This document shows positions 18,652-41,388 of a DNA stretch of 64,000 nucleotides, piece after piece. Both the position numbers and the translations under genes were made by a program. The DNA is taken from NCBI RefSeq assembly GCF_024168045.1, contig NZ_CP100126.1:327501-391500 (forward strand), written 5' to 3'. Origin of the DNA: Dorea longicatena (GTDB lineage Bacteria; Bacillota; Clostridia; Lachnospirales; Lachnospiraceae). Within the stretch, counting starts at the first letter, position 1; every line of letters starts with the position of its first letter. The notes beneath the pieces were generated by a model that had not been told where the DNA came from, did no database searches, and worked only from the letters and a program-made list of their open reading frames with translations.

Positions 18652-18688
18652 ATTGCAGAAAAAGAAGATAGAACGCTTGTTCTGCAAT
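18652..18688. repeat. IS605 left-end inverted repeat
   Basis: ATTGCAGAA (18652-18660) and TTCTGCAAT (18680-18688) are perfectly complementary with a 19-nt loop. In this family, such sub-terminal hairpins are recognised by TnpA. Confidence 0.65.
18671..18682. promoter_or_regulatory. LexA-like box at the tnpA promoter
   Basis: GAACGCTTGTTC fits the Firmicute SOS box GAAC-N4-GTTC. TTGTTC (18677-18682) can serve as -35 for TATACT at 18700-18705 (17-bp spacer), so LexA would cover the -35. The same bases also form part of the left-end inverted repeat, so this could be coincidence. Confidence 0.45.
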
Positions 18689-18739: not shown

Positions 18740-19147
18740 ATGGACAAAATGGATCATAATGCACATTCAGTATATTTGATGTATTATCATCTGATCATGG
18801 TTGTAAAATACCGAAGAAAAGTAATAGATGATCCGATTTCGGAACGTGCAAAAGAGATCTGGGAACGTATTGCACCTGATTATGGAATCACACTGGAAGA
18901 ATGGAATCATGATGTTGATCATGTGCATGTTATGTTTCGAGCACAGCCAAAATCAGAACTCAGTAAATTTATCAATGCGTATAAAAGTGCAAGCAGTCGT
19001 TTGTTAAAAAAGGAATATCCACAGATCAGGGAAAGACTTTGGAAGGAAGCATTCTGGAGTCAAAGTTTCTGCCTGTTGACAGCGGGTGGTGCACCGATTG
19101 ATGTTATCCGTAATTATATCGAGACGCAGGGAGAGAAAAAAAGATGA
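18740..19147 (+). CDS. tnpA: IS200/IS605 Y1 transposase TnpA
   Basis: A 135-residue HUH single-strand DNA transposase that cuts and rejoins the element ends as single strands. The metal-binding HUH motif is DHVHVMF (about residues 56-62) and the catalytic Tyr is in RNYIETQGE near the C-terminus (about 124-132). Length is normal. The ATG follows a TATACT/TATAAT region by about 30 nt. The last bases overlap the tnpB start (ATGA). All key residues are present, so it is probably active. Confidence 0.9.
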   Translation: MDKMDHNAHSVYLMYYHLIMVVKYRRKVIDDPISERAKEIWERIAPDYGITLEEWNHDVDHVHVMFRAQPKSELSKFINAYKSASSRLLKKEYPQIRERLWKEAFWSQSFCLLTAGGAPIDVIRNYIETQGEKKR

Positions 19148-20250
19148 ATATAGCTTACCATTTTCGTATATATCCAAACAGAGAGCAGGAAGTTCTGCTC
19201 GCAAAAACATTTGGCTGCTGTCGTTTTTTATATAATCAGATGTTGAATGATAAGATACGGGAATATGAAGCAACGAAAAAAATGCTGCGAAATACACCGG
19301 CGATGTATAAAAAAGCATATCCATTTTTGAAAGAAGTGGATTCCCTGGCACTTGCAAATGTGCAGATGCATCTGGAAAAGGCATATAAGAATTTTTTCAG
19401 GGATCCAAAGATTGGCTTTCCAAAATTCAAATCAAAACACAGGAGCCGAAAAAGCTATACGACAAATGTGGTCAATGGAAATATTCAGGTAGAAGATCAT
19501 CAGATAAAACTACCGAAGTTGAAATGGATCCGTATGAAAAAACATCGTGATATTCCAGAAAAATATTGCCTGAAATCTGTAACAATAAGTATGGAACCAT
19601 CTGGAAAGTATTATGCAAGTCTATTATATGAAAAAACTGACTGTGAAAACCAAGCAGAAGAATTAGATTATGAAGACGCAAAGATACTAGGAATTGATTA
19701 TGCAATGCATGGAATGGCTGTGTTTTCTGAAGATATACAGAAGGAAAATGAAGGATACTTCAGAAAAAGTGAGGAGCGGCTGGCAAGGGAACAAAGAAAG
19801 TTATCCCATTGCGTGAAAGGAAGCAATAATTATTACCGACAGAAAAAACGTGTTGCATTATGTCATGAAAAAATCCGAAATCAGAGGAAAGATTTCTTAC
19901 ATAAGCTGAGTCATGAAATGGCAGAGACATATGATGTTGTTGCAGTAGAAGATATTGATATGAAAGCAATGAGCCAGTGTATGCATTTTGGGAAAAGTGT
20001 CATGGATAACGGTTACGGAAAGTTTCGGGAATTGCTGGAATATAAGCTGACATGGAGAGGAAAGAAATTGGTACGTGTAGACCGTTTTTTCCCTTCCAGT
20101 AAAAAATGCTGTAAATGTGGTAGTGTAAAGAAAGAACTGAAACTTTCGGACAGAGTATATTTTTGTACATGTGGAAATCGGATAGACCGGGATCTGAATG
20201 CGGCAATCAATATACGTGAAGAAGCACGCCGCATGTTGTTAGCAGGATAA
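19144..20250 (+). CDS. tnpB: TnpB RNA-guided nuclease of IS605 (OrfB)
   Basis: A 368-residue TnpB, the ancestor-type relative of Cas12, which uses an omega RNA from the element's right end to cut DNA next to a short motif and so helps the element persist. N-terminal helical/WED part (YPNREQEVLLAKTFGCCRF), then the RuvC-like core: Asp in LGIDYAMHG (about residue 186), Glu in VAVEDIDMKAM (about 266), zinc ribbon CCKCGS...CTCG (about 320-342) and final Asp in RIDRDLNAAIN (about 346). The full D-E-D set and the zinc cysteines are intact. It is translationally coupled to tnpA. Confidence 0.9.
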   Translation: MNIAYHFRIYPNREQEVLLAKTFGCCRFLYNQMLNDKIREYEATKKMLRNTPAMYKKAYPFLKEVDSLALANVQMHLEKAYKNFFRDPKIGFPKFKSKHRSRKSYTTNVVNGNIQVEDHQIKLPKLKWIRMKKHRDIPEKYCLKSVTISMEPSGKYYASLLYEKTDCENQAEELDYEDAKILGIDYAMHGMAVFSEDIQKENEGYFRKSEERLAREQRKLSHCVKGSNNYYRQKKRVALCHEKIRNQRKDFLHKLSHEMAETYDVVAVEDIDMKAMSQCMHFGKSVMDNGYGKFRELLEYKLTWRGKKLVRVDRFFPSSKKCCKCGSVKKELKLSDRVYFCTCGNRIDRDLNAAINIREEARRMLLAG

Positions 20251-38925: not shown

Positions 38926-38960
38926 TCATTATTTTATTCGTAATAAGAACATATAAGAGA

Positions 38961-39000
38961 AACTGTGATAATAGCGTGAAGGTTATTATCGCAGTTTTTT
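38961..39000 (+). terminator. Terminator after cstA
   Basis: AACTGTGATAATA (38961-38973) pairs with TATTATCGCAGTT (38984-38996), then TTTT. Confidence 0.85.
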
Positions 39001-39024
39001 ATTTAAGTTATAGCAGATAAAAAA

Positions 39025-39036
39025 GAACAAATGTTC
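39025..39036. promoter_or_regulatory. LexA (SOS) box 1
   Basis: GAACAAATGTTC is a perfect Firmicute LexA/DinR box (GAAC-N4-GTTC), just upstream of the -35 of the radical-SAM gene. Confidence 0.8.
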
Positions 39037-39046
39037 TGAAAACCAC

Positions 39047-39075
39047 TTGAAAACAAGAACGCTTGTTTGTATAAT
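39047..39075 (+). promoter_or_regulatory. Promoter of the radical-SAM/DUF4130 pair
   Basis: TTGAAA (39047-39052), 17-bp spacer, TATAAT (39070-39075). LexA box 2 fills the end of the spacer. Confidence 0.85.
39057..39068. promoter_or_regulatory. LexA (SOS) box 2
   Basis: GAACGCTTGTTT fits GAAC-N4-GTTY and lies between -35 and -10, where LexA would block RNA polymerase. Centre-to-centre distance to box 1 is 32 bp, three helical turns. Confidence 0.75.
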
Positions 39076-39081
39076 AAAACT

Positions 39082-40608
39082 ATGAATATAGAAATCAAAA
39101 ACAGTAATTATACAACACAGGAGAAATTACAGATTCTTGCTGATGCGGCAAAATATGATGTGGCATGTACGTCAAGTGGTTCCAGCCGCCGTGGAAAGAA
39201 AGGAGAACTCGGCAATACAGAGGCATGCGGCATCTGTCACAGTTTTGCAGCGGACGGAAGATGTATTTCTTTATTAAAGATTCTGATGACAAATCATTGT
39301 GCCTATGATTGTAAATATTGCATTAATCGTGCAAGTAACGATGTGAAACGGGCAACATTTACACCTGAAGAGATCTGTGAACTGACGATTGAGTTTTATA
39401 GGCGTAACTATATAGAAGGTCTTTTCTTAAGCTCCGGAGTTTTGAAAAATCCGACATACACGATGGAAAAGATGTGTGAGACTTTACTGCTGCTTCGCAC
39501 AAAATATCATTTTAACGGATATATCCATGTGAAGACGATTCCGGGAGCTTCGGATGAACTTCTTGCCGCAGCGGGATATCTGGCCGACCGTATCAGTGTG
39601 AATCTGGAACTTCCGACGGAAGAGAGTCTTCGGACTCTTGCACCGAATAAGACAATGAAGACAATCCTTAATCCTATGGGAAAGGTTCAGAATACAATTG
39701 CTGCACACCGGATGGCCATCGGAAAGACAGCATATATGGAAAGAAGCAGGGGAAATCAACTGTTAAATAACGGCATTTTTTCGGAAATATCCAAAAGGAA
39801 TTATCGGGAAAGCCTGGAAGAAAAAAAGAAGACAGACAGACTGTCGGATGGAAAGGACGGAACTTTGCCTTCTCAAAAAGAAATGGGGAGAGTGGATGGA
39901 CTCCTTACATGGGACAATGCATATCAGTTAGCACCCCGTGATATGTCTGGTTTAAAGCGTCGTTTTGCACCTGCTGGGCAGAGTACACAGATGATCATCG
40001 GTGCGACGGGGGAAAGTGACTATACATTATTGCAGACGACCCAGCAGTTGTATCAGGGCTTTGATCTGAAACGAGTGTTTTACTCAGCATATATTCCGCT
40101 GAATGAGGATGATGCACTGCCGGGGCTTGGAACACCGACACCGCTTTTGCGTGAACACCGCCTCTATCAGGCAGATTGGCTGCTTAGATTTTATGGATTC
40201 CAGGCAGGTGAATTATTGTCGGAAGAAAAGCCGGATTTCAATGAACTGATCGATCCAAAGTGTGACTGGGCATTACGCCATCTCGAACAATTTCCTGTGG
40301 AAATAGAGACTGCAAGTTATGCAAGACTGCTTCGGGTACCGGGAATCGGTCCCAAATCCGCCAGTCGGATCACACATGCAAGACGGTATGGAAGACTGGA
40401 TTTTGCAAGCTTAAAGAAGATGGGTGTGGTACTTAAGCGGGCGCATTATTTTATTACCTGTGGGGGAAAACAGATGTATCATACACCGGTTGAAGCATCG
40501 TATATTATGAGACAACTGGTGAGTGTAGATAAGAAAGATGTATGGAATATAGAACATTCCAATGAATCTTATGTGCAATTGTCGTTGGCAGACTTTGGGA
40601 TAGGGTAG
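39082..40608 (+). CDS. Putative DNA modification/repair radical SAM protein (TIGR03916)
   Basis: A 508-residue radical SAM enzyme. Extra cysteines near the N-terminus (ACGICHSFAADGRC, about 51-65) are followed by the 4Fe-4S motif CAYDCKYC (about 73-80), the TIM-barrel with SSGVLKNPTYTMEKMC, and at the C-terminus a helix-hairpin-helix DNA-binding segment, LLRVPGIGPKSASRI (about 413-427). This matches the family named putative DNA modification/repair radical SAM protein, always paired with the next gene's family. A Lys/Ser-rich insert (about 215-285) makes it longer than usual. ATG 39082; the TTG at 39067 lies inside the promoter. Two LexA boxes indicate SOS control. The reaction is unknown. 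Confidence 0.88.
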   Translation: MNIEIKNSNYTTQEKLQILADAAKYDVACTSSGSSRRGKKGELGNTEACGICHSFAADGRCISLLKILMTNHCAYDCKYCINRASNDVKRATFTPEEICELTIEFYRRNYIEGLFLSSGVLKNPTYTMEKMCETLLLLRTKYHFNGYIHVKTIPGASDELLAAAGYLADRISVNLELPTEESLRTLAPNKTMKTILNPMGKVQNTIAAHRMAIGKTAYMERSRGNQLLNNGIFSEISKRNYRESLEEKKKTDRLSDGKDGTLPSQKEMGRVDGLLTWDNAYQLAPRDMSGLKRRFAPAGQSTQMIIGATGESDYTLLQTTQQLYQGFDLKRVFYSAYIPLNEDDALPGLGTPTPLLREHRLYQADWLLRFYGFQAGELLSEEKPDFNELIDPKCDWALRHLEQFPVEIETASYARLLRVPGIGPKSASRITHARRYGRLDFASLKKMGVVLKRAHYFITCGGKQMYHTPVEASYIMRQLVSVDKKDVWNIEHSNESYVQLSLADFGIG

Positions 40609-40614
40609 GAAATT

Positions 40615-41388
40615 ATGAAGATATATACTTGTAAGGATCGTCTGGAGGACATTATGACCTGCATCTATGATGCCTGGTCGGAAGCTTTACGAATCGGTCA
40701 TGATCAGATACAATTAAAGAAAGAACCGATATTACAGCAGACAATGTTTGATGAGTATGTCCATGTAGACGGGGATAATGTGAAAGCAGAAAAAGTAATC
40801 CGTTCTGTTCGCAGGGATATTTCCGATGAAGCATATCTGGATGTATATTATGCAAGCCTTTCTGTGGAGGAAGATGCGTTACAGGCAATCTATAATTTTC
40901 TGCGTGTCGGATTTGCAGTGGGAAGTAAGGTACTGGAACAGTATTCGAATCCTCATGTGATACGCATGTTGGAACTTCGGAGGAAAGTCGGTAATGAAAG
41001 CCATCATTTTAATGAATTTGCACGATTCCAGTCGCTGGACAGAAAGGTCTATGTCAGTCATCTGGAACCCAAAAGTGATGTGATCATGCTGGTTGGCAGA
41101 CATTTTGCGGACCGGATGCCATCAGAACATTGGATGATCATAGATGATAACCGGAAAACAGCATGCGTACATCCAAAAGACGGAACAAACTATCTGCGTT
41201 ATCTGACGGATGACGAATTTGAGTCACTTCGTAAAACAGAACAGTATGAAGATGAATATACAGAGATGTGGAAGACGTTTTTTCAGGCGGTTGCGATCAA
41301 AGAGAGGGAGAATTATGTGTGTCAGCGGAATTTGTTCCCAATCTGGAAGAGGAAGCATGCGGTGGAATTCAGAACGCTAAGGATATGA
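40615..41388 (+). CDS. TIGR03915-family putative DNA metabolism protein (DUF4130)
   Basis: A 257-residue protein of the DUF4130 (TIGR03915) family, always found with the radical SAM protein that precedes it by 6 bp here. Family features are the N-terminal YTCKDRLEDIMTCIYDAW, a helical middle (AIYNFLRVGFAVGSKVL), ARFQSLDRKVYVSHLEP (about 142-158) and the C-terminal KTFFQAVAIKERENYVCQ and LFPIWKRK. In other bacteria it is fused to or located beside uracil-DNA-glycosylase-like domains, so a base-repair role is possible. It shares the LexA-controlled promoter. No catalytic residue can be named. Confidence 0.88.
   Translation: MKIYTCKDRLEDIMTCIYDAWSEALRIGHDQIQLKKEPILQQTMFDEYVHVDGDNVKAEKVIRSVRRDISDEAYLDVYYASLSVEEDALQAIYNFLRVGFAVGSKVLEQYSNPHVIRMLELRRKVGNESHHFNEFARFQSLDRKVYVSHLEPKSDVIMLVGRHFADRMPSEHWMIIDDNRKTACVHPKDGTNYLRYLTDDEFESLRKTEQYEDEYTEMWKTFFQAVAIKERENYVCQRNLFPIWKRKHAVEFRTLRI

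Follow-up and report, generated by a model that had tools for sequence, protein, structure and literature searches.

We report that a gene pair in a 64,000-nucleotide stretch of Dorea longicatena DNA (contig NZ_CP100126.1; the whole stretch is called the window below) carries LexA-type boxes in its promoter. The first gene encodes a radical S-adenosylmethionine (SAM) protein of family TIGR03916 and the second a DUF4130 protein. Control of the pair by LexA is very likely, judged from promoter comparisons across several lineages. The best explanation of the whole is probably a LexA-repressed, damage-induced two-gene operon that acts on damaged or missing bases by radical chemistry.

The two boxes, GAACAAATGTTC and GAACGCTTGTTT, lie where a sequence-only reading of the window had first placed them (Table 1). 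That reading described them as flanking and overlapping the −35 and −10 elements, which is loosely right: box 2 fills the promoter spacer, but box 1 stops short of the −35 hexamer. It also called the 32 bp between them helical spacing. The closest relatives do keep this distance (31 to 33 bp, loci L016 to L022), but elsewhere it is variable (e.g., 19, 28, 35, and 48 bp) and some loci have one box only. We reject helical spacing of two boxes as a general feature of these promoters. When promoters (strict definition) and boxes (loose definition) were paired over 170 loci, the box fell in the spacer in 63, over the −35 element in 18, and over the −10 element in 1, and 88 gave no pairing; the arrangement in the window, with a box in the spacer, is the commonest pairing, though not universal.

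Counts of the plain pattern did not single out these sites. The GAACNNNNGTTY pattern had 5 strand-matches in the 64-kb window versus 3.35 expected (30 of 100 shuffles reached 5), and a 14-mer with 2 mismatches allowed had 10 matches versus 11.9 expected. The nearest genome (G001, 2.9 Mb) contained 23 perfect palindromes versus 39 of a reversed control pattern, i.e., fewer. Such counts were not above chance; the case for the boxes is carried by position and conservation. Of the 23 palindromes in G001, one lay 92 bp 5′ of the match that marks the orthologue; another lay 5′ of lexA together with a second box. We built a LexA matrix from 61 sites in lexA promoters of same-phylum genomes only; the training sites were chosen by a GAACN4GTTY-type expression in the 30 best-scoring lexA loci, 26 of which carry the same kind of box. 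The matrix threshold of 9.9 bits is the 99% quantile of 2234 control windows, so that 1% of controls pass. The two boxes of the pair are the two best matches to this matrix in the window.

A survey of Firmicute promoters for GAAC-N4-GTTC, proposed with the original reading, found the boxes to be conserved. We counted all of the 80 best of 547 relatives, searching from −250 to +60 relative to the projected start. A perfect GAACN4GTTC occurred in 43/80, and a box relaxed at one end occurred in 70/80, compared with a mean of 1.2 and a maximum of 6 in 100 shuffles; all 80 passed the 99% matrix threshold. The flanks of these loci contained 5 perfect sites in 650 kb. The 80 loci are kin rather than 80 independent events, but box positions shift between groups, which favors maintenance over mere descent.

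In a sample of the phylum, TIGR03916 exceeded its cut-off in 92 rows from 91 of 398 genomes, which indicates a widespread radical SAM family. Of these rows, 90 were used and two left out; after removal of a single locus of insufficient length, 89 remained. Perfect boxes were found in 22 and relaxed boxes in 54 of the 89, compared with 0 and 2 of 267 gene-body windows, and shuffles gave a mean of 1.1 and a maximum of 5 relaxed boxes (100 shuffles). With any one mismatch allowed, 62/89 loci and 32/267 gene-body windows had a match. The 99% matrix threshold was passed by 62 loci and failed by 27. A lexA gene was matched in all 80 genomes tried among the 90, in 79 of them over the cut-off. In two genomes lexA lies approximately 3 kb away from the gene for the radical SAM protein, and in a third a weaker match resembling LexA, below the cut-off at 64.9 bits, lies next to that gene (G232, G099, and G428).

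Where the promoter of lexA itself lacks the usual box, the promoter of the pair seems to have changed with it toward a variant box. In one genus, seven loci (L161 to L167) carry a promoter with TTGAAA and, in its spacer, GAAT-N4-ATTC; lexA of that genus, read in two genomes, carries GAATGTATGTTT. Family f149 gave two lexA loci with CAAACAATTGTTTTG and two pair promoters, the first with CAAACATATGTTTG and the second with GAACATATGTTT. The search for drifted boxes was made after box-less promoters had been viewed and is post hoc and suggestive only. The variant boxes GAAT-N4-ATTC and AAAC-N4-GTTT (L144 and L161 to L167; lexA loci L199, L200, L202, and L211) suggest a changed LexA specificity in these lineages.

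Beyond the phylum, 158 plasmid records contained a relative, and 20 loci were chosen for taxonomic spread from lists of 40 and 60 rows. A box in Phaeobacter prompted the motif test; the other 19 loci were picked before their upstream DNA was viewed, and the start codons of four in unannotated records (L232, L237, L241, and L242) were estimated. An exact GTTCN7GTTC or its complement was present near the start codon in 14/14 alphaproteobacterial loci (Phaeobacter included), compared with 1 in 85.8 kb of alphaproteobacterial flanks. CTGTN8ACAG was present in 2/2 loci of the betaproteobacterium Caballeronia, for which no background count was made. We take GTTC-N7-GTTC and CTGT-N8-ACAG to be the LexA motifs of alpha- and betaproteobacteria, as we do the Firmicute motif for its own lineage. 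The Acinetobacter and Bacteroides loci had none of the motifs tried, and GGA-N5-TCC and CTAA-N5-TTAG, LexA motifs of Bacteroidetes, were absent from the two Bacteroidota loci (L188 and L189). One relaxed Firmicute-type match in Spirosoma and one mismatched alpha-type match in Gemmatirosa were not counted. These patterns are most simply explained by selection that maintains the operon under whichever LexA the host has, and SOS control through three different LexA motifs would indicate when the cell needs the pair. The boxes had been called direct evidence of induction by damage, which they are not; it is LexA control that the comparison strongly supports.

The −10 element ends six bases 5′ of the ATG in the nearest relatives, as it does in the window. 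With start codons chosen by rule, 35 of 169 readable orthologues had a −10 element 3 to 10 bases from the start, none of them with a Shine-Dalgarno-like stretch; 70 had such a stretch, and 64 had neither. For comparison, a −10 element so placed was found at 2 of 104 DUF4130 starts. Twenty-nine of the 35 belong to the 80 close relatives plus G001, and the predicted leaderless start thus appears to be mainly a trait of the window's clade.

The radical SAM protein (97% identical to two Dorea longicatena proteins) matched TIGR03916 at 706.3 bits, against a curated cut-off of 343.5. We know of no reaction assigned to this family. The cysteines of the CX3CX2C motif were conserved in 190/190 orthologues, and three further cysteines beside it (C29, C52, and C61) were conserved in 189/190; in the structure model the region of these three is mostly below 50 in predicted local distance difference test score (pLDDT). 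A helix-hairpin-helix region was matched in 42/42 family members (E up to 1). A sequence search of the Protein Data Bank gave partial matches only, in the helix-hairpin-helix and radical-SAM motif regions. HydE and lipoyl synthase led the best 50 rows of each of two fold searches with the model; spore photoproduct lyase was not among these rows, which excludes nothing. Nor was there a spore-lyase row for 42 members among the families listed (25 of 46 NCBIfam families and 18 Pfam families), from a library without TIGR00620 and with no SplB alignment compared. The radical-SAM barrel also occurs in LipA and HydE, and LipA has three cysteines before the motif. LipA contains an auxiliary iron-sulfur cluster. 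We nevertheless reject membership in the LipA family, as hhalign gave a probability of 2.5%. A known anti-phage system was rejected as well: there was no PADLOC match at E ≤0.001, and the only PHROG match was to a family of unknown function. The pair is found in MT835514.1 (L190), a 44-kb record labeled as an unverified fecal bacteriophage, and a radical SAM gene of the same name is found in two 240-kb Acinetobacter records labeled "phage."

The second protein matched TIGR03915 at 244.7 bits (cut-off, 112.25) and DUF4130 at 160.2 bits (cut-off, 27). It had been called an obligate partner, and the two genes do adjoin in 77/80 close relatives and in 27/29 further loci (L097 to L125), but not in all; two of the three misses among the 80 are loci that end there, and 60 further loci were too short to tell. 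The DUF4130 alignment has six invariant residues (R137, F138, P152, F164, R167, and R231) and no obvious catalytic residues. The fold is tentatively RecJ/Cdc45-like according to the model; we take the replisome chains returned by the fold search to be of the Cdc45 or RecJ type. The DHH motif is absent from the window protein, a Pfam scan of 34 members listed 24 families with neither DHH nor DHHA1 among them, and a sequence search of the Protein Data Bank returned no match to DUF4130.

In Phaeobacter, the second gene encodes DUF4130 fused to UdgX (TIGR03914, 331.9 bits). The next gene was annotated as UdgX family in 13/13 annotated alpha- and betaproteobacterial records, of which Phaeobacter alone was profile-scanned, and the Acinetobacter, Spirosoma, and Bacteroides loci have a separate partner gene. 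UdgX exceeded its cut-off in 0/80 Firmicute genomes, with weaker matches in 49, and the partner in the window matched TIGR03915 only, with no uracil-DNA glycosylase (UDG) domain at E ≤0.001. We reject UdgX proper as the Firmicute partner on the 0/80 count. Capture of uracil or abasic sites looks like a Proteobacterial add-on that gives a mere hint for the window pair, although the fusion suggests a class of candidate sites. The precise role of UdgX has been called largely unknown (PMC10359453), and the operon offers a place to look for it.

We propose that LexA bound at box 2 in the promoter spacer, aided by box 1, blocks RNA polymerase and that RecA filaments trigger LexA self-cleavage, after which the operon would be transcribed. 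Here, LexA binding and damage induction are what we infer; what the comparison shows is that the boxes exist, that they resemble those in the lexA promoters of the clade, and that they are conserved. The pair most likely acts on a damaged or missing base, the presumed lesion, in single strands exposed during the SOS response. DUF4130 would serve as the DNA-binding partner, perhaps with a degenerate RecJ/Cdc45-like fold, holding single-stranded or gapped DNA, and the reaction would be hydrogen abstraction by a 5′-deoxyadenosyl radical. Where UdgX is fused to the partner, in Proteobacteria, its role would be the capture of uracil or of abasic sites in this DNA. The DNA-repair role put forward in the sequence-only reading is made plausible by SOS control, the helix-hairpin-helix, and the Proteobacterial UdgX fusion. 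We also entertain, as an unlikely extension, a damage-induced, two-metal-site radical enzyme that acts on single-stranded DNA presented by a RecJ/Cdc45-like subunit and chemically rewrites nucleotides that are damaged or have lost their base, with UdgX trapping the same sites in Proteobacteria. If true, this would be a radical-chemistry branch of DNA repair that is neither photoreversal nor excision.

The chemistry originally suggested was reversal of a lesion in the manner of spore photoproduct lyase; in this reading, the radical enzyme would split a pyrimidine dimer or a similar photoproduct. A radical SAM core together with a helix-hairpin-helix and SOS control would suit such an enzyme. 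DUF4130-associated proteins were called SplB-like radical SAM photolyases in 2013 (PMC3765255), and LexA sites were predicted before a "splB" in 2012 (PMC3323433); the latter gene may belong to the same family or to another. Our own data gave photoreversal no support: the profile library, of uncertain coverage, listed no spore-lyase row, the fold-search rows were other enzymes with HydE and lipoyl synthase first (which excludes nothing), the three extra cysteines are a further point against it, and record titles suggest that many hosts inhabit the gut, which is dark. We regard a photolyase-like reaction as possible but unlikely, and as unsupported by these data. About equally doubtful is modification of DNA rather than repair, in which C29, C52, and C61 would bind a second iron-sulfur cluster that inserts sulfur, as in lipoyl synthase, or otherwise rewrites a base, during the SOS response. 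The lipA profile comparison aligns only a stretch around the common motif, the cysteine region is modeled largely at low pLDDT and so without a firm geometry, and a zinc or electron-transfer site would fit these residues equally well.

A slightly less likely alternative is that the target is not DNA at all but a nucleotide, RNA, or protein substrate, with SOS control serving stress metabolism. No activity of the family is known to us, we found no tested DUF4130 function, and the fold matches are mostly enzymes that act on small molecules, peptides, proteins, or RNA; against these stand the helix-hairpin-helix in every member scanned, the UdgX fusion, and LexA-type boxes in several lineages. 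Least probable by far is that the boxes arose by chance or serve another repressor. The pattern searches in the window and the palindrome count in G001 were no better than chance, but the matrix, conservation, the shuffles, and the lineage-specific motifs upstream of orthologues argue the other way, and we reject chance boxes on these grounds.

LexA control has already been published for pairs of this kind; the breadth, the predicted leaderless start, the extra cysteines, the tentative DUF4130 fold, and the Phaeobacter UdgX fusion are added here. We take COG4277 to be the radical SAM family TIGR03916, in which case a published COG1573-COG4277 operon resembles the window pair in having two genes and belonging to a LexA network. 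This operon was presented as a UDG-based base-excision operon in the LexA network of Bacteroidetes, with Verrucomicrobia and Alphaproteobacteria cited; it differs in its LexA motifs, and the relevant passages do not treat it as a radical enzyme (PMC8565304). For CAC3343-CAC3344 of Clostridium acetobutylicum, LexA control was predicted, and expression data are said to support it; the account given there concerns one species, offers no chemistry, and leaves the partner unnamed (PMC3828012). The 2012 report of "splB" with LexA sites in alpha- and betaproteobacteria, groups with differing LexA motifs, makes the same lineage-specific-motif argument as we do for what it calls a spore photoproduct lyase homologue (PMC3323433); if this "splB" is the TIGR03916 family, the cross-lineage argument is already in print.

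The 2013 genome-context study linked DUF4130 to an SplB-like radical SAM protein and a uracil-DNA glycosylase and labeled it a "predicted mutagenesis-related enzyme" (PMC3765255), whereas we see no obvious catalytic residues and a tentative RecJ/Cdc45-like fold. The UdgX papers PMC10359453 and PMC10776899 do not contain "SOS" or "operon" in their main text; the link to UdgX described here is the TIGR03914 domain fused to DUF4130 in Phaeobacter, a domain not over its cut-off in the 80 Firmicute genomes. A "Radical SAM protein" (vnz_31145) appears in a LexA table (PMC9380542), and an SplB-like photolyase was reported in Paracoccus aminophilus JCM 7686 (PMC3925955), the organism of locus L228; these two may belong to TIGR03916 or to another family. 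We found no published paper that mentions both UdgX and radical SAM, nor any that names TIGR03916.

Table 1. Positions of the features discussed, numbered from the first nucleotide of the window.
Feature	Position	Strand	Details
LexA-type box 1, GAACAAATGTTC	39025-39036	.	Perfect palindrome; ends 10 bp 5′ of −35; lexA matrix 17.1 bits, rank 1
−35 hexamer TTGAAA	39047-39052	+	5/6 match; read from sequence
LexA-type box 2, GAACGCTTGTTT	39057-39068	.	Within 17-bp promoter spacer; lexA matrix 15.4 bits, rank 2
−10 hexamer TATAAT	39070-39075	+	6/6 match; six bases 5′ of start codon; predicted leaderless mRNA
ORF 1, radical SAM protein, TIGR03916 (rSAM_link_UDG)	39082-40608	+	ATG start 39082; 508 aa
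Codons of C29, C52-H53, and C61, candidate second metal site	39166-39264	+	Conserved in 189/190 orthologues
CX3CX2C radical-SAM motif, C73/C77/C80	39298-39321	+	Conserved in 190/190 orthologues
Helix-hairpin-helix region, residues 405-446	40294-40419	+	PF12836, 23.8 bits, under cut-off of 27
ORF 2, DUF4130/TIGR03915 partner	40615-41388	+	257 aa; AlphaFold2 mean pLDDT 91.4
TnpA	18740-19147		
TnpB	19144-20250		

By eye, positions 38960 to 39005 of the window contain an inverted repeat and then a run of T, a terminator-like arrangement between the upstream gene and the promoter of the pair.

Elsewhere in the window, the match that ranks third by the lexA matrix (13.9 bits) is a perfect LexA-type palindrome at 18671 to 18682, where it overlaps the −35 region of a transposase gene (IS200/IS605). 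Twelve TnpA matches were found in 6 of 61 relatives. Nine copies, from three genomes, have a box of 14.7 to 18.9 bits in a similar place, two have no box, and one was unreadable; copies within one genome are not independent. The box at TnpA could reflect SOS control of transposition or could be part of the element's end hairpin.

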